From NCBI GenBank assembly GCA_002816875.1, contig MUCP01000046.1, forward strand, positions 1 to 37,409: a stretch of 37,409 bases of DNA, in the 5' to 3' direction. The notes beneath the pieces were generated by a model, which saw only the letters and a list, made by a program, of their open reading frames with translations, made no database searches and had not been told where the DNA came from. Shown in pieces: positions 4,935 to 19,426 of the stretch (position 1 is the first letter of the stretch; each line of letters starts with the position of its first letter). The translations under genes were made by a program, and so were the position numbers. The stretch comes from SAR202 cluster bacterium Io17-Chloro-G2. GTDB lineage: Bacteria > Chloroflexota > Dehalococcoidia > Lucifugimonadales > UBA3495.

Positions 4935-4965
4935 GTAGCCCCAAGTTCGGGAAAGCCGGGGTTAC
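4935..4965. terminator. Hairpin between convergent genes
   Basis: GTAGCCCC (4935-4942) pairs with GGGGTTAC (4958-4965), with one G-T pair and a 15-base loop. It lies between the small gene and the end of the CoA-transferase gene and overlaps that gene's stop codon. There is no T-tract, so a terminator role is only plausible. Confidence 0.3.
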
Positions 4966-7649
4966 ACGGAACCGCCCTCTGCTAGGGCCGCCAATTCCTC
5001 CTTGGATAGCCCTAATTCCCCGCACAGGACCTCTTCGTTGTGTTCCCCGATCAGAGGCGCGCGACGGGATATTCTCCAAGGTGAGCCGTTGAATATGGCC
5101 GCTGGGCCAGTGTGCCGTAATGTCTTGCCGATTTCGGGATACTCCACATCTGTCCAGAACCCCCGGTCCTCCAGGTGCGGGTCTTGCATGACTTCATCAG
5201 GAGAGCGGACCGCCCCTGTGTTGTAGCCGCGCTTCTGCAGGCCGTGGTAGGCTTCGTCGCGGGTGATGTTTCCCAGGAATTTCACCAAAAGTTCCCGAAT
5301 GTGCGGATGACTGTTAGCGATCACCGCTGGGTCCCGGTATTTCTCATCCAATAGGTCCCCCGCCAATCCGTACTCAGCCATCCAATCCGCCATCGCCGGC
5401 ACCCGCTCGGGGGTCACCTGATTCACGTTCACGTATTTTCCATCCTTGCATAGCACCTGCGGGTTGGGTCCTCTGTCCGTGTTGCCCCCTCCAGTTCTGC
5501 GCGGAACGACATTTCCGGTGTATATGTACTGGTTGACGTGGCCCTCGGTGGTAAGGGCGCAGGCGTCATGTACCGAAGCATCTATGTATTGCCCGCGGCC
5601 CGTCACGGACCGGCTGACCAGCGCCGCGGAGATGGCGATGTAGGCGTAATGACTCCCGATGTGCCAGGCTTGCCCTCCTCCAGGTGCAATGGGCGGTGAA
5701 CCCGGCACGACCTCGTCGTCATATCCACACCGGGCCATCTGTCCGCCCGCCGCCAGGTGCAGCAGGTCGCTGGTCCGGTAATCCTTCCACGGCCCCGTCT
5801 GCCCAAAGGGAGTCAGTGAGCACATGAGCAGCGCTGGGTTGTGTTTTTTTAGATCTTCATACCCCAGCCCAAGGGAGGCCATATAACCGGGCCTGAAAGT
5901 CTCTAGTATCACGTCCGCCTTCTCCGCCAGCCGGCGGAACAGCCCGCGCCCTTCGTCAGTCTCCAAGTCCAGGGTGATCCCCCGCTTGGAGGTGTTGTAG
6001 TGCCAGAAGTAAAGACTCCTCTCCCTGTCCGGAATGTCCTGGTAGAAGGGCCCCACGTTGCGGGCCGCCTCGCCGCCGGGCGGCTCTATCTTGATTACAT
6101 CCGCTCCCATGTCAGCCATCTGCTTGCCGCACCACTGACCCATCTCGTCAGCTAACTCCAATACCCGCAGCCCCCCAAAGGCACCGTCGGAGTCCTTGCC
6201 CGGAGTCCGCGCCGGTGCCGGACCTGGGTTCGCTATCGGTTCATTCCCGTTCCACTGAACGGGCCGGGCATCTTCCATCATGTCCTTGAAGTACGGATAT
6301 TCATCCAGGCTGAGGCCCTTTGGCCAGAAAGCGCCTTCCTCGAAGCCGTCCAACAACTCCTGGTGGCTGATGCCCAACAACCCTTCGAACACCTCTTTGT
6401 TGTGTCCGCCTATCAGCGGCCCGGGACGGCTGTTGAACGCCGGCGTCTCCGACATCTTGAAAGGGGCGTTCTGAAGGGGCCAGGCCCCCAACGCCAGATG
6501 CTCCATTTCCGTCAAGATCTCTCTATGCTCGAGCTGTGGATCGTTCTCCACCCGGTCCTGGCTGTTTTGAACGGGCATAGCTGGCACCCCCGCCGCCTGG
6601 CACCGCTCCATGATCTCGTACTTGCCCAGGGTCTTGGTCCACGCCTCTATTCCCTGGTCCATCTCTTCCTGGTGCTTCAGGCGGCCTTCCAGGGTGGCAA
6701 ACTTCCCGCCGACGGCCCAACTGGGAGAGCCCATCACTCCGATCAACCTTTGCCACTCATCGTCGGTGAAGCAGCCTATGGCGCACCAGTCGCTGTACTC
6801 CCCCGGACCGGTCTTGTATGCGTTATGTGGCGCCACGGTTTGGCCACGGTAGTTGTTCACCAGCGGCGTGCCGGGCCAGTGGGCCCGGTTGCCCGGCGGG
6901 TAACCCTCCCGCATGGTGGATCGATTGTTGGCCTGGATGTCGAGAAAAGCGGCGCCGTTAAGAGGGACACCGATGATCCACTGGGAACTGTCGACATGCT
7001 GCCCCTGGCCGGTCATGTTTCGATGATATATCGCGCTCAGGGCATACATGGCCCCATACAGGCCGCCGGTGTCGTCCAAGTAGGACCAGCCCCAACCGGC
7101 GGGCGGCTTGTCCGGCAGGCCCGACGTGAAGGTCATACCTGACAGGGCTTGGGCGATGGCTCCCATGGTTTGATAGTCCCGGTCCCGTCCCGTGTGGCCG
7201 AAGCCGGACATCGATAGGTAGATGATGTCGGGGCGGAGCTTCTTCATATCCTCGTAGCCCAGACCCCACCGGTCCAATACACCGTAGGCGAAGTTTTCGA
7301 TTACGATGTCGGACATGGCCACCAAGCGCCGGGTAAGGTCGATGCCCCGGGGCGTGCGGGTGTTCAGGGTGACGCTCCGCTTGTTGGCGTTGGTGTCGCT
7401 GAAATGGCCGTTGGTGTTCAGGTTGGCGGGAAAGCCTTGGGGCGTGCCCGCTCCATTGGCGATATTTTCGCCGCGAGTATTGGGTCTCTGAGGCCACTCG
7501 ACCTTGATTACCTCGGCGCCCAGCGCCCCCAGCCATCGGGTGCACCATGGGCCCGCCCGGACCCAGGTGAAGTCCAATACTCGGACCCCTGCCAAAGCTC
7601 CAGGTTTAACTACCCCTCTACCTTCTGTCTGCGCCGTTGAATCACTCAT
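4962..7649 (-). CDS. Fused double-domain CaiB/BaiF (class III) CoA-transferase
   Basis: At 895 residues, about twice the length of a usual class III CoA-transferase (about 400). Two family copies are joined by a proline-rich linker near 460-490. Copy 1 (about 20-440) begins GVRVLDFTWVRAGPW and has the conserved SMSGFGHTG, TGQGQHVD and a C-terminal PLIGGHNKEV. Its D192 in YLDDTGG lies at the spacing of the catalytic aspartate of formyl-CoA transferase. Copy 2 (about 492-895) begins GLRVLELADEMGQWCG and has TPFGQTGPW, TGRGQYID and APLIGEHNEEV. The aligned position there is W662, and no acidic residue is near. Copy 1 is probably catalytic and copy 2 structural or CoA-binding. The family moves CoA between carboxylic acids. 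Confidence 0.92.
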   Translation of the reverse strand: MSDSTAQTEGRGVVKPGALAGVRVLDFTWVRAGPWCTRWLGALGAEVIKVEWPQRPNTRGENIANGAGTPQGFPANLNTNGHFSDTNANKRSVTLNTRTPRGIDLTRRLVAMSDIVIENFAYGVLDRWGLGYEDMKKLRPDIIYLSMSGFGHTGRDRDYQTMGAIAQALSGMTFTSGLPDKPPAGWGWSYLDDTGGLYGAMYALSAIYHRNMTGQGQHVDSSQWIIGVPLNGAAFLDIQANNRSTMREGYPPGNRAHWPGTPLVNNYRGQTVAPHNAYKTGPGEYSDWCAIGCFTDDEWQRLIGVMGSPSWAVGGKFATLEGRLKHQEEMDQGIEAWTKTLGKYEIMERCQAAGVPAMPVQNSQDRVENDPQLEHREILTEMEHLALGAWPLQNAPFKMSETPAFNSRPGPLIGGHNKEVFEGLLGISHQELLDGFEEGAFWPKGLSLDEYPYFKDMMEDARPVQWNGNEPIANPGPAPARTPGKDSDGAFGGLRVLELADEMGQWCGKQMADMGADVIKIEPPGGEAARNVGPFYQDIPDRERSLYFWHYNTSKRGITLDLETDEGRGLFRRLAEKADVILETFRPGYMASLGLGYEDLKKHNPALLMCSLTPFGQTGPWKDYRTSDLLHLAAGGQMARCGYDDEVVPGSPPIAPGGGQAWHIGSHYAYIAISAALVSRSVTGRGQYIDASVHDACALTTEGHVNQYIYTGNVVPRRTGGGNTDRGPNPQVLCKDGKYVNVNQVTPERVPAMADWMAEYGLAGDLLDEKYRDPAVIANSHPHIRELLVKFLGNITRDEAYHGLQKRGYNTGAVRSPDEVMQDPHLEDRGFWTDVEYPEIGKTLRHTGPAAIFNGSPWRISRRAPLIGEHNEEVLCGELGLSKEELAALAEGGSV

Positions 7650-7925: not shown

Positions 7926-9080
7926 CTAAGGTAAACGCGCCTCCGGCGGGACCTTGTCGTACCCCACCAGCTCCACGAATCCTTTGCCAGTGATTTTGTC
8001 CCCATGTTTGGTTCCTGATATGGCGACGGCTCCCTCCCAGTAAGCGATGGGCACGTACAGGCTGTCGCCGAATTCGGCGTTCTCCTGGATTGGGACCAGG
8101 TTGACCGCTAGTTCTAGGGATGAAACTTCCAGGAGCCAGCCCGATGGATACTCCACCCCGGTGGCGGGGCTGCGCCAAGCGTCTTTTGAGGTCAACGAGA
8201 TGGCATCGCCGGGCAAATGCCGAGACATGGATGACGCGCCGACGGTGGATTGCCCTACAATCTCGCCTGGGACGTAGGTGCCGTAGCTGGTGATCGGCTC
8301 ACCGGTGGACGAATCCCATACCAGGGAAATCATCAACTCCGAGCCGTCGTCCATCTGAAGACTGGCCCAATCCCAACCGATGGGCAGGGTGTTTAGGTCG
8401 CCCCATTGGTGGTCCATCCATGCCTTGCCTGCTACCTGGACCGGCATTCCGTTCTGGGTCAGCGTACCGGAGATGTCCAGCTTGGGCCTGGAATAGTAAT
8501 AGGTCTTACCGGCACGGCCCAGGTCAACCAGTCCCTCTTCTTGATGCAAAACGGCAGGACTTTGGGATTTGGCGGCCAAGTCCAGCGTGTAGCCGCCAGC
8601 GTTGAAAACGAGTTCGTAGGCGCTCTCAACTCCGGTTACGGCGCCGCTCATATGCCATTCCTCAATGTCGAAGGTAAAAAGGCCTTTCGTTGGTTGCAGG
8701 TTGTTGACCAGGGCAGGCATTTCATCCGTTAGATAGAGCCCTGCTCCATGATCGGCCAGGCTCAATTGCATCAATTGAGGTATTTGGCCATCGCTGGTGA
8801 CGATGATGAAGGTGACGAAGTGAAAGCTGTACCGGTTGCCATTGGAGCCGTCCAGGTGGCCGTTGAAATACCACCACTCCACCGGAGCCAGGTGGATGCC
8901 TTCATCATCGGGGAGGTTGACAGTACCGAGGTGGGCTGCCGCCTGCGGGACTGGAGAATGGGTGGGTAGGGGGGTTGGAGTGGGGGTAGGAGTGGAGCCC
9001 GGCCCGGCGCAGGCCGCCGCAAAAAAAAATAATACCCAAGCCACGGCAACTTGTTGAATCACTAGAAGGGGAATTCTCAT
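7926..9080 (-). CDS. Lipoprotein with CrtC/AttH-like lipocalin fold
   Basis: A 384-residue secreted lipoprotein. The signal peptide runs to C24 (FFFAAAC), followed by a threonine-proline linker with TPTPTPTP. The body starts near residue 55 with the family motif APVEWWYFNGHL and later has KAWMDHQWGD and WDWASLQMDDGSELM, which mark the carotenoid 1,2-hydratase/AttH superfamily of two lipocalin-like halves. In photosynthetic bacteria CrtC hydrates carotenoids. Secreted members elsewhere have no assigned reaction, and no carotenoid genes are near, so I do not infer hydratase activity. AGGAA lies upstream of the ATG. The signal peptide is encoded partly by a run of nine T's. Confidence 0.88.
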   Translation of the reverse strand: MRIPLLVIQQVAVAWVLFFFAAACAGPGSTPTPTPTPLPTHSPVPQAAAHLGTVNLPDDEGIHLAPVEWWYFNGHLDGSNGNRYSFHFVTFIIVTSDGQIPQLMQLSLADHGAGLYLTDEMPALVNNLQPTKGLFTFDIEEWHMSGAVTGVESAYELVFNAGGYTLDLAAKSQSPAVLHQEEGLVDLGRAGKTYYYSRPKLDISGTLTQNGMPVQVAGKAWMDHQWGDLNTLPIGWDWASLQMDDGSELMISLVWDSSTGEPITSYGTYVPGEIVGQSTVGASSMSRHLPGDAISLTSKDAWRSPATGVEYPSGWLLEVSSLELAVNLVPIQENAEFGDSLYVPIAYWEGAVAISGTKHGDKITGKGFVELVGYDKVPPEARLP

Positions 9081-12786: not shown

Positions 12787-13608
12787 CTACTTCTGAGCCA
12801 GAAGGAAATCCACCAGGGCGTTTACCTCGTCGTCGCTCAAACCCGCGGTGACCGCGGCGGTCATAATGCCGGGAATGGCCCTGTCCACGCCGGTGGCCAC
12901 GAATGCCTGGGGGTCTCGTATCGATTCGAAGATGTAATCTTCGGCCGACGTGCCTGGTTTACGGCTGGCGGCTTCGGTTCCCAGGTGGGAGAGGTCCGGA
13001 CCTACCAACCCCTGGCTGACGCCGTCAACGGCGTGGCAGGCCCCGCATCCGCCGCTTCCCAGGAAAATCTCCTGTCCATCCAAACCGGCAGGCTTGCTCG
13101 CGGGTTCCGAAGCTTGGGTGGGAGTGTCTGCCATAGCCTCGGCTGGGGTGGCATCAGGAGCTGGCTCGGTAGGCATGGGAGTGGCCTCAGCAGCTTCGGC
13201 AGCCCTTTCTTTGGCCTTTTCCTTTGCTAGTTCCACGGCATGTTCGTCGTAGGGTATCGCCCTCTCCAGCGCGTAGGCCCGTGGCTCACCGCCTAAGGAC
13301 AGGAACAAAGTTAGAAGCGCCACACCCACACCGAAAGCCAGGAACAGCCCGGCCAAAAACACCCATGTGAACAGACGGTGGTCGAACTTGAGGTGCATGT
13401 AGAACGCAATGACGATGGCGAATTTGATTGCCGACAGGATCGCGAGAAGCGGTATCTTGGAGTATCCCAAACTATCGACAACGCCCGCCCTTGGCCAGAT
13501 CAACAGGAACTCGACGATGGTTATGGCAAAAAGGATAGTAGCCACCAACACGTACTGTTTGAAGGTGGGGTGGTGGCCCTGCTGTCCTTCCTGGTGACTA
13601 CTGCTCAT
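12787..13608 (-). CDS. Cytochrome c oxidase subunit IV fused to a cytochrome c domain
   Basis: 273 residues. Residues 15-104 form the three membrane helices of a prokaryotic COX4-type subunit IV (about 20-38, 53-73 and 80-104), with KFAIVIAFYMHLKF. A charged helix, a proline/threonine/alanine linker (about 140-175) and a class I cytochrome c domain follow. Haem is bound at CGACH (188-192); M249 in IPGIMTA is the likely sixth ligand, and the last helix is DDEVNALVDFLLAQK. It is the last gene of ctaC-D-E-IV; AAGGAG precedes the ATG. Family subunit IV is usually about 100 residues without haem, so the fusion adds a second tethered electron carrier besides the one on CtaC. Confidence 0.92.
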   Translation of the reverse strand: MSSSHQEGQQGHHPTFKQYVLVATILFAITIVEFLLIWPRAGVVDSLGYSKIPLLAILSAIKFAIVIAFYMHLKFDHRLFTWVFLAGLFLAFGVGVALLTLFLSLGGEPRAYALERAIPYDEHAVELAKEKAKERAAEAAEATPMPTEPAPDATPAEAMADTPTQASEPASKPAGLDGQEIFLGSGGCGACHAVDGVSQGLVGPDLSHLGTEAASRKPGTSAEDYIFESIRDPQAFVATGVDRAIPGIMTAAVTAGLSDDEVNALVDFLLAQK

Positions 13609-13646: not shown

Positions 13647-14285
13647 TCAACCACCGGAGGCCGGCGCCGGTCCGGCGTCGAAGCCGCCGATGAGGTACAG
13701 CAATGTAAAGATGACGATCCAAACGATGTCGACGAAGTGCCAATACAGACCGAGGATCTCCACGTCAAGAGCGGTGGCGGGCCCCACCCGGCCTTTGACG
13801 GCAAGCACAAACATTCCCAACAGCCAGATGATGCCCAAGGTCACGTGGGCGCCGTGGAAGCCGGTCAGGGTGAAGAAACTGGCGCCGAATAGGTTAGCGC
13901 CGAGGGTCAACCCTTCGTTCTTGAATGTATTGAACTCGACAACCTGGAAACCGATGAATATCGCCCCCAGGAATGCGGTGGCCAGCAGCCAGATCTTAAT
14001 TCCCCTCTGGTCGTTTTTGTTGGTTGCGGCCAGCGCCTGGACCATGCTGAAACTGCTGCATAGAAGCACGAACGTGCTGATGGTGGTCACAGGCACGTTG
14101 ATGATATCTATGGGGTAAGGCCCGTTCAGGCTCTGGCCCCTATACACCATGTAGGTGGCGATGAGGGCGCCAAAAAACATACAGTCGGAACCCAGGAAGA
14201 CCCACATCAGCAGCTTCCTATGATTTAAGCCGGTGGTGGTATATTCCTCTTCGGCGTGGTGTGCCGTCTCTACCCCGTGGGCCAA
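13647..14285 (-). CDS. ctaE: Cytochrome c oxidase subunit III
   Basis: 212 residues with about five to six membrane helices, the short form found in caa3 and related oxidases. Landmarks are KLLMWVFLGSDCMFFGALIATY, FHGAHVTLGIIWLLGMF and a final YWHFVDIVWIVIFTLLYL, the conserved subunit III end. It binds no redox centre and stabilises subunit I. The start is TTG at 14285 with AGGAG nine bases upstream. It sits 12 bases after ctaD and 38 before the subunit IV fusion, in one operon. Confidence 0.95.
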   Translation of the reverse strand: MAHGVETAHHAEEEYTTTGLNHRKLLMWVFLGSDCMFFGALIATYMVYRGQSLNGPYPIDIINVPVTTISTFVLLCSSFSMVQALAATNKNDQRGIKIWLLATAFLGAIFIGFQVVEFNTFKNEGLTLGANLFGASFFTLTGFHGAHVTLGIIWLLGMFVLAVKGRVGPATALDVEILGLYWHFVDIVWIVIFTLLYLIGGFDAGPAPASGG

Positions 14286-14297
14286 AGTTTGTAACTC

Positions 14298-16136
14298 CTA
14301 GTGATCCGATTCGGCGGCGGCCGGCTCATTTCCCCAGCCCACCACACCCGCGAAGGCTATGATGCCTCCGGCGAAACTCAGGGCGTAATGGGTCAAAAGA
14401 CCACCGGCGATCCACGTTACCCCAAAGGCGATGACAATGGGCCAGTATGACGGGCTAGGCATGTGGATCGTGCGTTCGTCCACGTGGGCTTCGCCCGGTG
14501 GCGTCCCCTGGCCAGCCTCCCTAGCCTGCTCCTTAACGATCCAGTAATGGTCGCGGCCCAGGACCTCGGGAATCACCGCGAAGTTATAAGCGGGAGGAGG
14601 AGAGGAAATGGACCACTCGATTCCAGGGGCGTCCCAGGGGTCGTGGCCCGCTTCAGCTCCATTTTTGGAACTCCGCAGGTAGTTGACTATGAATACCACG
14701 AATCCGATGAACAAGACGATGTACCCCAGGGACGAAAGCGAGTTCAGCAACTGGAAACCTGACTCGGCGGGGTAGGTGTAAACCCGGCGAGGCATGCCGT
14801 TCATTCCAACGAAGTGCATGGGGAAAAAGGTGAGGTTCATGCCGATGAATATCAACCAGAAGTTGAGTTTACCCAGCCCTTCGCCCAATAGTCTTCCAGT
14901 GAACTTGGGACCCCAATAGTAGATGCCGGCAAAGATGCCAAATATGGAACCACCGAACAGGACGTAGTGGATGTGGGCCACTATGTAATAGGTGTCTTGC
15001 TGCTGGTTGTCGGCGGGCGCGACGGCATGGGACACGCCGCTGAGGCCGCCGATTATGAACAGAAAAACGAAGCCAACGGCGAAAAGCATTGAGGTTTTAA
15101 ACTCGATAGCCCCGCCCCACATGGTGCCGATCCAGTTGAATATCTTCACCCCCGTGGGCACGGCGATGAGCATGGTAGTGATGGTGAACACCGAGTTGGC
15201 CACCGGTCCCAGTCCCACGGTGAACATATGGTGGCTCCACACAGCCCAACTCATGATGCCTATGGTGATCCCGGAAAACACCACAAAGGGATAGCCAAAC
15301 AACGGTTTCCTGGAAAAGGTGGGAAGCACCTCCGACACGACTCCCATGGGAGGCAGAATCAGAATATAGACTTCGGGGTGGCCGAATACCCAGAACAAAT
15401 GCTGCCACAATAGAGGGTCGCCTCCTCCGGCAGGCATGAAGAAGTGGGTCCCAAAGTTCCGGTCCATGGTGAGCTCGATCAGGCCCACGGTAATGACCGG
15501 AAATGCCAGTATCAATAGGATGGATGTGATCAGCGTCATCCAGATGAATACAGGCATGCGCATCAGGCTCATGCCCGGCGCTCGCATATTGATTATCGTT
15601 ACGGTGAAGTTCAAGGCCGCCGCCACTGACGAAGTACCCAACACCAGTAGACCCAGGGCCCAGAAATCCATACCTGCGTTGGCGCTATAGGGTTTCTCCG
15701 TCAGGCTGGCGTAGGAGAACCAGCCGGCATCGGGCGCCTGGTTCTGCAGGAACCCGGCATGTAGCAGCAGGGTGCCGAAAAGGAACAGCCAATAGCTTAG
15801 TGCATTTAGGCGCGGGAAGGCCACGTCCCTAGCGCCGATGGCCAGGGGAACTATCAGGTTGAAGAAGGATGCGCTGAGAGGCATGATGACGTTGAACACC
15901 ATGGCAGTGGCGTGCATCGTGAACATTTGATTGAAAACGCCGGGACTGACCAAGTCGCTGTCCGCCGTCGCCAATTGGGCGCGCATCACTCCAGCTTCGA
16001 CGCCCGCGATCAACAGCATGGCAAAGGCGGTGAAGCCGTAAAGGATGCCGATGCGTTTATGGTCAACGGTGGTTATCCAGCTCCACACACCGGTGTAGCC
16101 GGAGGGTCTGGCCAGTACTCCTGTTAGTGTCGCCAT
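14298..16136 (-). CDS. ctaD: Cytochrome c oxidase subunit I (haem-copper oxidase, type A1)
   Basis: Catalytic subunit reducing oxygen to water and pumping protons; 612 residues, twelve or more membrane helices. Metal ligands are visible: H75 (TMHAT, low-spin haem), H253 with the cross-linked Y257 in GHPEVY, H302 and H303 (CuB), H388 (high-spin haem) and H390. E255 in GHPEVY is the D-channel glutamate that defines type A1. A C-terminal extension of about 100 residues includes WSISSPPPAYNF and two more helices. GGAGG lies upstream of the ATG. It lies between ctaC (82-base gap) and ctaE (12-base gap). Confidence 0.97.
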   Translation of the reverse strand: MATLTGVLARPSGYTGVWSWITTVDHKRIGILYGFTAFAMLLIAGVEAGVMRAQLATADSDLVSPGVFNQMFTMHATAMVFNVIMPLSASFFNLIVPLAIGARDVAFPRLNALSYWLFLFGTLLLHAGFLQNQAPDAGWFSYASLTEKPYSANAGMDFWALGLLVLGTSSVAAALNFTVTIINMRAPGMSLMRMPVFIWMTLITSILLILAFPVITVGLIELTMDRNFGTHFFMPAGGGDPLLWQHLFWVFGHPEVYILILPPMGVVSEVLPTFSRKPLFGYPFVVFSGITIGIMSWAVWSHHMFTVGLGPVANSVFTITTMLIAVPTGVKIFNWIGTMWGGAIEFKTSMLFAVGFVFLFIIGGLSGVSHAVAPADNQQQDTYYIVAHIHYVLFGGSIFGIFAGIYYWGPKFTGRLLGEGLGKLNFWLIFIGMNLTFFPMHFVGMNGMPRRVYTYPAESGFQLLNSLSSLGYIVLFIGFVVFIVNYLRSSKNGAEAGHDPWDAPGIEWSISSPPPAYNFAVIPEVLGRDHYWIVKEQAREAGQGTPPGEAHVDERTIHMPSPSYWPIVIAFGVTWIAGGLLTHYALSFAGGIIAFAGVVGWGNEPAAAESDH

Positions 16137-16218: not shown

Positions 16219-17331
16219 CTACTTTAAGCTTATTAGATACTCAATGACGGCGGATATGTCGTCATCGCTAAGGGTGATTTCCCCGTCCTGGTAAAAGGGC
16301 GCTCTCGCTGACATGTAGTTTCCGGGTTTGATGTCGTCAGGTTTTTCCAGCCATGATCGAAGGTTGTCCTCGTTCAAATCCAAAAGGCCAGCGGCGAACT
16401 TCTGGCGGGTCGCCAGGTCGGTAAGGTTGGGAGCGGGGGCAATGTTGCCTCCGGCCAGGAAGCCGGCCACCCTGCCGTCCACCAACGCGGCGGCATCGGC
16501 CCCGGTGGCGGTGTGGCATGAGGAGCAATTTGCGTTGAAAACGTTCTGTCCCTGCTGCGCCTGGGGAGACAATGCCGACGGTTGCCCGTAGGCCTCCACC
16601 CACGCATCGTAATCGTCTTGCTCCATGACTGTTACTTCAAACTTCATCAAAGCATGGGAGAGCCCGCAAAACTCAGCGCACTGCCCCAGGAATGTGGCCG
16701 GCAGGGTCTCTATCTTGTTTGAGTCTGCTTGAAACCACAGGCGGTTGGTATGGGTGGGAATCATGTCCACCTTGCCGGCGAGCCTGGGGATCCATAAGCT
16801 GTGAATCACGTCGTCGCTTTCCAGCCACACCTGCACCGGTGTGTCCACCGGCACGCGAAGCTCGTTGGCGGTCGTGATGGTTTTGCCGCCTCCGGCGTCG
16901 GCGTATTCGAACTCGAACCACCATTGGTGACCGGTGGCGGTCACTTCCAAGACGTAGTCGGCCGAGGCGGGAGGCTTGTCTAACTGCCAAAGGGCGACGA
17001 CAGACCATATACCTAGGCCCATGATCAAAATAGTGGGGATGACGGTCCAGGCGATTTCCAAGGGCAGGTTTCCGTGGACCTGGCTGGGCCTTTCTTGGCC
17101 GGGACGGGCGCGGAATCGTATTGCCGCGTAAATCAGGACACCTTCCACCAAGATGAAAGTTATCGCCATGATCCAGACCAATACGTTGAACAGCAGAAGC
17201 TGTTTATCCGCCACGGGTCCAGCGGCATTCCAAGTGGATCGATCACCTTGCGAACAAGCTACGGTGAGGACTAACAGGACCGCGGAGATGGCCAGGGATT
17301 TGATAAACTTGCTTCTGGGCGGGTTGGGCAC
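16219..17331 (-). CDS. ctaC: Cytochrome c oxidase subunit II with fused cytochrome c (caa3 type), lipoprotein
   Basis: 370 residues from the GTG at 17331, which has a strong GGAGGGAGGGAGA upstream. A lipoprotein signal ends at C26 (VLTVAC); two membrane helices follow, then the CuA cupredoxin domain with H177 (IHSLWIP) and C218, C222, H226 and M229 in GQCAEFCGLSHALM. A C-terminal class I cytochrome c carries CSSCH (269-273). CtaC takes electrons from a donor through haem c to CuA and then to CtaD. The frame continues upstream to 17397, but those residues are not signal-peptide-like. Its own promoter lies upstream. Confidence 0.95.
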   Translation of the reverse strand: MPNPPRSKFIKSLAISAVLLVLTVACSQGDRSTWNAAGPVADKQLLLFNVLVWIMAITFILVEGVLIYAAIRFRARPGQERPSQVHGNLPLEIAWTVIPTILIMGLGIWSVVALWQLDKPPASADYVLEVTATGHQWWFEFEYADAGGGKTITTANELRVPVDTPVQVWLESDDVIHSLWIPRLAGKVDMIPTHTNRLWFQADSNKIETLPATFLGQCAEFCGLSHALMKFEVTVMEQDDYDAWVEAYGQPSALSPQAQQGQNVFNANCSSCHTATGADAAALVDGRVAGFLAGGNIAPAPNLTDLATRQKFAAGLLDLNEDNLRSWLEKPDDIKPGNYMSARAPFYQDGEITLSDDDISAVIEYLISLK

Positions 17332-17461
17332 TCTCCCTCCCTCCCTAGAAACTAACTCGTTGCGCCGTCTCGCGGATCCCCGGGGGTTGAACCCCATTTA
17401 CAGACTCCATTGTCGCGGTTTTAACCGGTGGTTAGTGCAATTTTTCACTATCCGGTGGGAC

Positions 17462-17544: not shown

Positions 17545-18462
17545 TCATAACCCGATGGTGGTGTCGGCAATCATAGCCACGAACAAAAGCGCGAGATACA
17601 GAAGGGAATACAGGTACAACTTTCTCGCCCGGGGCCTTGAGTCGTTTCGTTTCAACTGCCAGGCAAATAGGAGGAATATCGTGCCCAGTGCCGCCGCGCT
17701 GCCCAGGTAGATCCATCCCACCGTAGAGATCAAAGCGAACACCAAGGTCAAGGGTATGAGCACCACCGAGTAGAGAAATATATTCGCCACGGTAGTTGGC
17801 CGTCCGGCTACCACCGGCAGCATGGGGATCCGTGCCTGGGCGTAATCTTTCTCAATCAGCAATGCCAAGGCCCAAAAGTGGGGAGGAGTCCAGAAAAAAA
17901 TTATGGTGAACAGGTACAGGGCGGGCAGGCTCAAGCTGCCGGTTACCGCCGCCCAGCCCACCAGCGGCGGAATGGAGCCTGCGGCTCCGCCTATGACAAT
18001 GTTATGGGGAGTGTTGCGTTTCAACCAGCTGGTGTAGACCAACACGTAGAATAACGTCGCGGCCATGGTCAAGGACGCCGCCAGCACGTTGACCCAGAGT
18101 GCCAGCAGCGCAAAAGCCAGGCCATTCAATAACACGCCAAACGCCAACGCGGCGCGGGGAGGGATACGTTTCCCGGGGACGGGCCTTTGCCGGGTCCGGG
18201 ACATCAACGAATCTATATCTTGTTCGAGGTAGTGGTTCAGGGCGTTGGCCCCTCCGGCGCCTAAGGAGCCTCCTACGCAAACCAGAATCACCAAGACCAA
18301 CGGCGGCGGACCGCCGGCGGCCAGAAACATTGCCCCCAAAGCGGTGATCACCAACAAAATGATGATGGGCGGTTTGGTCATGCTCAGGTAATCGCTGGCC
18401 AGGCTTATGATCGAACCGCCTTTAACAGCCTGGGACCCCGCCACCCCCGGCTGATCAATCAT
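17545..18462 (-). CDS. ctaB: Protohaem IX farnesyltransferase (haem O synthase)
   Basis: UbiA-family membrane prenyltransferase that adds a farnesyl group to haem B to give haem O. The 305 residues have about nine helices. The first aspartate-rich motif is in NHYLEQDIDSLMSRTRQRP and the second in EKDYAQARIPMLPVV, both diagnostic for CtaB. TPPHFWALAL is also typical of haem O synthases. The ATG at 18462 overlaps the end of ctaA by eight bases, so the two are translated from one message, and product passes to CtaA. It lies upstream of the oxidase subunits. Confidence 0.96.
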   Translation of the reverse strand: MIDQPGVAGSQAVKGGSIISLASDYLSMTKPPIIILLVITALGAMFLAAGGPPPLVLVILVCVGGSLGAGGANALNHYLEQDIDSLMSRTRQRPVPGKRIPPRAALAFGVLLNGLAFALLALWVNVLAASLTMAATLFYVLVYTSWLKRNTPHNIVIGGAAGSIPPLVGWAAVTGSLSLPALYLFTIIFFWTPPHFWALALLIEKDYAQARIPMLPVVAGRPTTVANIFLYSVVLIPLTLVFALISTVGWIYLGSAAALGTIFLLFAWQLKRNDSRPRARKLYLYSLLYLALLFVAMIADTTIGL

Positions 18463-19426
18463 GGGAGAGGTCCCTGGACCGCTCCGGGTACTGGAAAGGA
18501 GAAGTGGCGTGGACCAGGACGGCCAACCCGGCCACGAAGCCCCAGAGAGCGGTGGCTAGAGAAAGGTGAAGCGCCCTCAACCAGATGGCAAAGTCCAGCC
18601 AGACGGTGGCCGCCCCGGCGGCTACTTGAAGCGCGAATATGGTAGATGCTGCCATTGCAAGGAATCTTACTCCCTTCGGCCTGTCCTTGCCACGAATCCC
18701 TAAGTGCAATGAATAGAGCACGAATAGTCCGAAACCCAGCGTTGCCAACCGGTGTCCCATGTGGATTGCCTGCAGCGTGGACTGGGGAAATACATTCCCC
18801 TGGCAAAGTGGCCATGTGGTGCAGGCGGCGGTGGCGCCTGCCGCGGTGACGAAGGAACCCGTGAGGATCAATGCGTAGACGGCCACGGCCGCCGCCAGCA
18901 TCGATTTTGGGAATTTGCCAGCCCCTTCAATCCCGCCGGTCTCATCGATCTCATCGGTGGTTCTGCCCCAAATGAACGGTCCCCGGTGGGAAACCACCAG
19001 CAATAGGATGAGCGTGCCAAGTAACGCCTGAGCCAAGGCCAAGTGGGCAGCAACGATCCCGCCTGGAAGCTCGGTTAGCACCGTGACGCCGCCCAGCAAC
19101 GCCTGGCCGATGAGCAGCACGACGGCCACGGTGGCAGGGACCACGATCCACCGGTCTCGCCGGTGGGTCATCCAAGCCGCGATGCAAGTCGCTAATACCA
19201 ACGGTCCCACCAGGGCGGAGGCGACCAGCCGGTGGCTGTATTCGATCACCGGCTGAAGTTCCAAGGGCGGAAATATTCCTCCGTGGCACAATGGCCAGTC
19301 GGGACAGCCAAGGCCGGAGCCGGTGACTCTCACAACGCCACCCAGCACCACCAATGCCCCAACGGTCAAAACAGAAAGCCAGCACAACCCCTTGAACCAG
19401 GGCTTGGGCTGTGATGTCAATGCCAT
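18455..19426 (-). CDS. ctaA: Haem A synthase
   Basis: COX15/CtaA family integral membrane protein of 323 residues and about eight helices, in two homologous halves. It oxidises the C8 methyl of haem O to the formyl group of haem A. Each half has an extracytoplasmic cysteine pair: CPDWPLCHG early and CTTWPLCQG later, the arrangement seen in cysteine-containing CtaA proteins. Haem-ligand histidines are present in EYSHRLVAS, AHLALAQ, MGHRLATLG and ALHLSLA. The ATG at 19426 lacks a clear Shine-Dalgarno sequence. First gene of the ctaA-ctaB pair, divergent from the ABC transporter genes. Confidence 0.95.
   Translation of the reverse strand: MALTSQPKPWFKGLCWLSVLTVGALVVLGGVVRVTGSGLGCPDWPLCHGGIFPPLELQPVIEYSHRLVASALVGPLVLATCIAAWMTHRRDRWIVVPATVAVVLLIGQALLGGVTVLTELPGGIVAAHLALAQALLGTLILLLVVSHRGPFIWGRTTDEIDETGGIEGAGKFPKSMLAAAVAVYALILTGSFVTAAGATAACTTWPLCQGNVFPQSTLQAIHMGHRLATLGFGLFVLYSLHLGIRGKDRPKGVRFLAMAASTIFALQVAAGAATVWLDFAIWLRALHLSLATALWGFVAGLAVLVHATSPFQYPERSRDLSHD

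Follow-up and report, generated by a model that had tools for sequence, protein, structure and literature searches.

A second tethered electron carrier, haem or copper, predicted on subunit IV of the caa3-type oxidase in a family of SAR202-type Chloroflexota

Among bacteria of an uncultured and largely marine family, the caa3-type oxidase appears, from gene sequences, to bear a second tethered electron carrier on its subunit IV, in addition to the haem c of subunit II. This family-wide trait is new, and so is the exchange between haem and copper that the carrier has undergone among close relatives.

Results

The window, which is the whole stretch of 37,409 nucleotides that was analysed (contig MUCP01000046.1 of SAR202 cluster bacterium Io17-Chloro-G2), contains on its minus strand a ctaA-B-C-D-E-F operon running from 19426 to 12787, and all six products score above their Pfam cut-offs. 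The genes ctaA (18455-19426) and ctaB (17545-18462) encode a haem A synthase (COX15-CtaA) and a haem O synthase of the UbiA family. CtaC, the subunit II (16219-17397; COX2_TM, COX2 and Cytochrom_C), displays the CuA motif CAEFCGLSHALM within its COX2 domain, scores above the TIGR02866 CoxB cut-off and, as the earlier note had read it, ends in a cytochrome c domain of its own (Cytochrom_C at residues 281-391, with CSSCH at 291). CtaD, the subunit I (14298-16136; COX1), is of the cytochrome c oxidase type, with 700.1 bits for TIGR02891 CtaD_CoxA against a cut-off of 670.75, and ctaE (13647-14285; COX3) encodes subunit III. Judged by subunits I and II, this enzyme is a caa3-type oxidase (A family), with a putative haem a/a3 composition and oxidase activity; ctaA and ctaB are present. 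Scanning around the operon end in the window for promoters and terminators found nothing. Elsewhere on the same strand, two further genes were tentatively assigned by eye: an 895-residue open reading frame with two tandem CoA-transferase-like halves (4962-7649) and a putative lipoprotein resembling the AttH/CrtC lipocalin-like family (7926-9080; VEWWYFNGHL).

The last gene of the operon, ctaF, lies at 12787-13608, the position that the earlier note had given without a strand; it is on the minus strand, 38 nt after ctaE, with a ribosome-binding site AAGGAG upstream of its ATG. Its 273-residue product joins a subunit IV to a class I cytochrome c. The core of the membrane part is a COX4_pro domain (residues 21-92, 13333-13548; 36.0 bits for a cut-off of 28.9), and AlphaFold (AF2) places helices at residues 16-37, 43-72 and 77-104; the Pfam match and the three helices identify a prokaryotic subunit IV. 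According to hydropathy, the third hydrophobic segment ends at about residue 108 and is followed by an A/E/P-rich linker, which covers roughly residues 104-174 (13087-13299). Beyond the membrane helices, AlphaFold shows a helix at 122-141, predicted disorder at 143-172 (pLDDT below 50) and then a folded domain; AF2 confidence is moderate (pLDDT 67.8 and 64.1). This last domain (residues 177-271, 12796-13080) matches Cytochrom_C with 33.0 bits for a cut-off of 21.3 and has the marks of a class I cytochrome c, namely CGACH at 188 and the conserved Met249 as candidate distal ligand; its haem form gives a weak fold match. Wherever the motif can be read, haem-type CtaF proteins likewise have a CxxCH and a candidate Met 49-62 residues downstream. 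Two other identities were rejected, the sulfur-oxidation cytochrome SoxX (TIGR04485, 36.8 bits for a cut-off of 61) and the cbb3 oxidase subunit III-type cytochrome (Cytochrome_CBB3, 21.9 bits for a Pfam cut-off of 27). Pfam, hydropathy and motifs thus bear out what had been noticed at first sight, a 273-residue protein with three helices, a linker and a CGACH cytochrome c with M249; together with that of CtaC, the oxidase has two separate tethered haem c domains, unlike the textbook caa3.

The GTDB family of the window is represented by 36 genomes in a sample of its order, and 35 of them encode CtaF and a C-terminal electron carrier in one open frame. By motif, the carrier is a cytochrome c in 27 of these fusions and a copper domain in the other 8. 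The only oxidase of G157, the one genome without the fusion, is distant (CtaD 40% identical), and this genome also encodes a free lipoprotein-like cytochrome of the CtaF kind. The carrier domain is under strong purifying selection, with dN/dS values of 0.014-0.2, mostly below 0.2, in the close-relative pairs where they could be computed. The linker, which ranges from about 30 to 65 residues among CtaF proteins, is less constrained than the domains in most of these pairs. Beyond the family, cytochrome-type fusions occur in families f15, f12 and f10, and a copper-type fusion in one genome of f20 (G071). The earlier note had proposed to search the Chloroflexota for proteins combining COX4 and cytochrome c; the combination proved to be family-wide, whereas outside the window's order a 400-genome sample of the phylum showed no fusion in one frame, nor did the best-scoring hits when 294 genomes of the class were searched with a profile. 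Other phyla were sampled by one peptide-seeded scan of genome contigs, and the named relatives with the fusion in such a scan are SAR202 and Dehalococcoidia MAGs. One genome (G122) possesses two oxidase operons, on contigs C4 and C8 (L134 and L133), with a fused CtaF in both; the haem motif of its second oxidase is hidden behind ambiguous letters (X) in the contig.

In the domain tree, the cytochromes of CtaF and the free lipoprotein-type cytochromes share a clade with support 100, from which those of CtaC are well separated; this tree has few columns and its inner branches are unsure. Because the two kinds fall in separate clades, the CtaF cytochrome is not a recent copy of that of CtaC, and an origin by duplication of the CtaC haem domain is not supported. 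On this tree, the haem domain of CtaF derives from a lipoprotein-type cytochrome. Some genomes of g5 have free copies of the CtaF-kind cytochrome directly 3' of ctaF. Family f47 belongs to the same class but to a different order. There, ctaF is plain, and a lipoprotein-type cytochrome of this kind has a gene of its own within about a dozen bases downstream, the layout that one would expect before fusion. Within f47, this separate cytochrome is dihaem in L219, and CtaF carries an N-terminal pair of CxxC zinc-ribbon-like motifs in L219, L220, L221 and L222.

The copper-type CtaF proteins of the family are found in genus g7 (six genomes) and in G183 and G193, where an azurin/auracyanin-like domain replaces the cytochrome. 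Pfam Copper-bind confirms this carrier, and the type-1 copper ligands His, Cys, His and Met (HN, CTFPGH, Met) are present in 9/9 copper-type CtaF sequences; together with the cupredoxin fold, they characterise a type-1 copper domain of the azurin/auracyanin kind with a predicted copper site. By sequence, the nearest solved structure is auracyanin A (E 1.4e-25), and by fold the domain matches the auracyanins 6kol and 2aan (E about 3e-13 and 4e-13). The haem c of CtaC is retained in all 32 of the same-family CtaC sequences that were read. Two side cases concern other placements of copper domains. In G173, a CtaF of 443 residues (L132:8860-10188, plus strand) has two tandem azurin-like domains. 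In G036, a CtaC of 484 residues (L172:5002-6453, plus strand) combines the CuA domain, a cytochrome c and an extra C-terminal cupredoxin, so that the additional carrier is put on subunit II and not on subunit IV.

A concatenated tree of the oxidase core places the window inside an 11-genome clade (support 100/99) that mixes haem and copper types. A topology that unites the copper types in one clade is rejected (p-AU 0.0004), so the carriers were swapped. The same test does not reject a copper clade enlarged by genus g8, with the window outside (p-AU 0.138), and the CtaF of g8 has a divergent cytochrome. The simplest history would be that the ancestor had a haem form, which the window retains, that copper replaced it once, and that the copper domain later gave way to another cytochrome in g8. 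There is also a hint that the cell's free carrier is matched by the tethered one: a free copy of the same cupredoxin is encoded in 7 of 8 copper-type genomes versus 2 of 19, a difference that comes from just two phylogenetically independent pairs and is not significant, which leaves a strict rule equating the tethered with the free carrier unproven.

As for the possible electron donor, NrfD proteins of alternative complex III (ACIII) were found in 31 of the 32 genomes examined, against 1 of 32 for cytochrome b, bc1 being almost absent from these genomes. In several relatives we read ACIII operons encoding five-haem ActA-like and monohaem ActE-like proteins. The genome to which the window belongs is 56% complete and gave no match for ACIII or CcmF.

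Discussion

The conservation of the CxxCH and Met, and the fact that a blue-copper domain can take the place of the cytochrome, support a redox-carrier role for the CtaF domain. In this respect, the earlier reading of a redox carrier on an oxidase with two haem c holds, although it had missed that the trait is family-wide, that copper is an option and that the haem domain is of lipoprotein-type origin. COX4-type subunits such as CyoD span the membrane with three helices, so that the N-terminus is on the inner side and the C-terminus on the outer side. With such a topology, the third transmembrane helix would put the CtaF carrier outside the membrane and therefore alongside CuA, where the partly disordered linker could let it swing. 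We think that CtaF probably holds a tethered mobile carrier that passes electrons from complex III to CtaC. It would accept them from ActE of the alternative complex III and hand them to the haem c of CtaC, from which they would proceed to CuA, haem a and the haem a3-CuB site; the arm would thus replace the diffusing or lipid-anchored carrier from which it was made. Precedents exist for both ends of such a path. ActE donates electrons directly to caa3 in Rhodothermus marinus (PMC5928083), and it transfers them to auracyanin in Roseiflexus castenholzii (PMC8552683). By analogy, either a haem c or an auracyanin on CtaF would fit an oxidase-anchored slot between ActE and CtaC.

On the other hand, one could imagine that the CtaF carrier is a second entry port, CtaF and CtaC drawing on different donors so that one oxidase would serve two pathways. 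The haem domains of the two subunits do belong to different families, as expected of different partners, and some genomes have free cytochromes of the CtaF kind. However, no specific second donor gene was seen travelling with the fusion, and haem gave way to copper without a visible change in the gene content of the operon, which makes this explanation rather unlikely. We give still less weight to a static two-step wire, in which the CtaF carrier would stay docked by the CtaC haem c and merely lengthen the electron path. Against it stand the length of the linker, which varies from about 30 to 65 residues, and its less constrained sequence; the docking partner would also have to accommodate a cytochrome and a blue-copper fold alike. 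In its favour, the predicted topology should bring both domains of a complex to one side of the membrane. A device for docking or assembly, with the domain mainly joining complex III to the oxidase and its redox function incidental, is improbable: wherever the motifs can be read, haem and copper sequences alike have intact redox ligands, and what takes the place of the haem domain is another redox protein, although supercomplexes of ACIII and caa3 are known (PMC5928083). Finally, a sequencing frameshift, which the earlier note had named as what would refute it, or a fortuitous union of two genes, either of which a fragmented, incomplete assembly might invite, can be dismissed because the same architecture stands in one open frame in 35/36 family members, recurs in named MAGs and is under purifying selection (carrier dN/dS 0.014-0.2).

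Altogether, what is seen in the relatives speaks rather for a mobile carrier that is tethered and works between complex III and the oxidase. This reading can be extended, with chances that we estimate a little short of even: in oxidases of this lineage, subunit IV may bear a modular, exchangeable electron arm, built from the cell's own carrier, as a second, mobile shuttle between alternative complex III and the haem c that is fixed on CtaC.

A parallel can be drawn with several known systems. The caa3-type oxidases of Rhodothermus, Thermus and Bacillus likewise have a CtaC with CuA and one haem c, the subunits CtaD, CtaE and CtaF, and ctaA and ctaB in the operon, but their subunit IV is devoid of a carrier, whereas the oxidase of the window has its second carrier there. 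In Flavobacterium johnsoniae, the ActA of the ACIII-aa3 supercomplex bears an additional haem c domain (PMC5928083, PMC8552683), which seems to stand in for the haem c of subunit II of the oxidase (PMC5928083). The likeness lies in an extra tethered cytochrome c between complex III and oxidase; the extra domain of Flavobacterium is nevertheless on complex III, apparently instead of that of subunit II, while in the window it is on subunit IV, besides that of CtaC. Auracyanin, the mobile blue-copper carrier of Chloroflexus and Roseiflexus to which the copper-type CtaF carrier is nearest among solved structures, accepts electrons from ACIII in Roseiflexus (PMC8552683). There it serves the photosynthetic reaction centre and is no part of an oxidase subunit, whereas the copper-type CtaF carrier is tethered to the oxidase. 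The oxidases of L061 and L107 also have two haem c, but both on CtaC, and their CtaF is plain; these CtaC proteins, at L061:5353 (plus strand) and L107:5173 (minus strand), are of 617 and 536 residues with two CxxCH motifs each.

We found no paper in the open-access literature that discusses an oxidase with a carrier-fused subunit IV. Table A3 of a 2022 paper on nitrite reductases of Chloroflexi (PMC8756737) contains two open reading frames, PKB63614.1 and PIQ26724.1, given as 'COX IV' plus a related C1 cytochrome. They came from a search with another cytochrome and stand as an appendix entry without discussion; going by the description in the table, they apparently have the same COX4 plus cytochrome c architecture, and their operon, function, distribution and copper variant are all left undiscussed.

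It is an open question why carriers are free in some respiratory chains and tethered in others. The family described here offers close relatives with either a haem or a copper carrier tethered to an otherwise matching oxidase, so that the roles of tethering, metal and docking become directly comparable. The SAR202-type Chloroflexota in which this is observed are an uncultured group whose oxygen respiration has been little studied.
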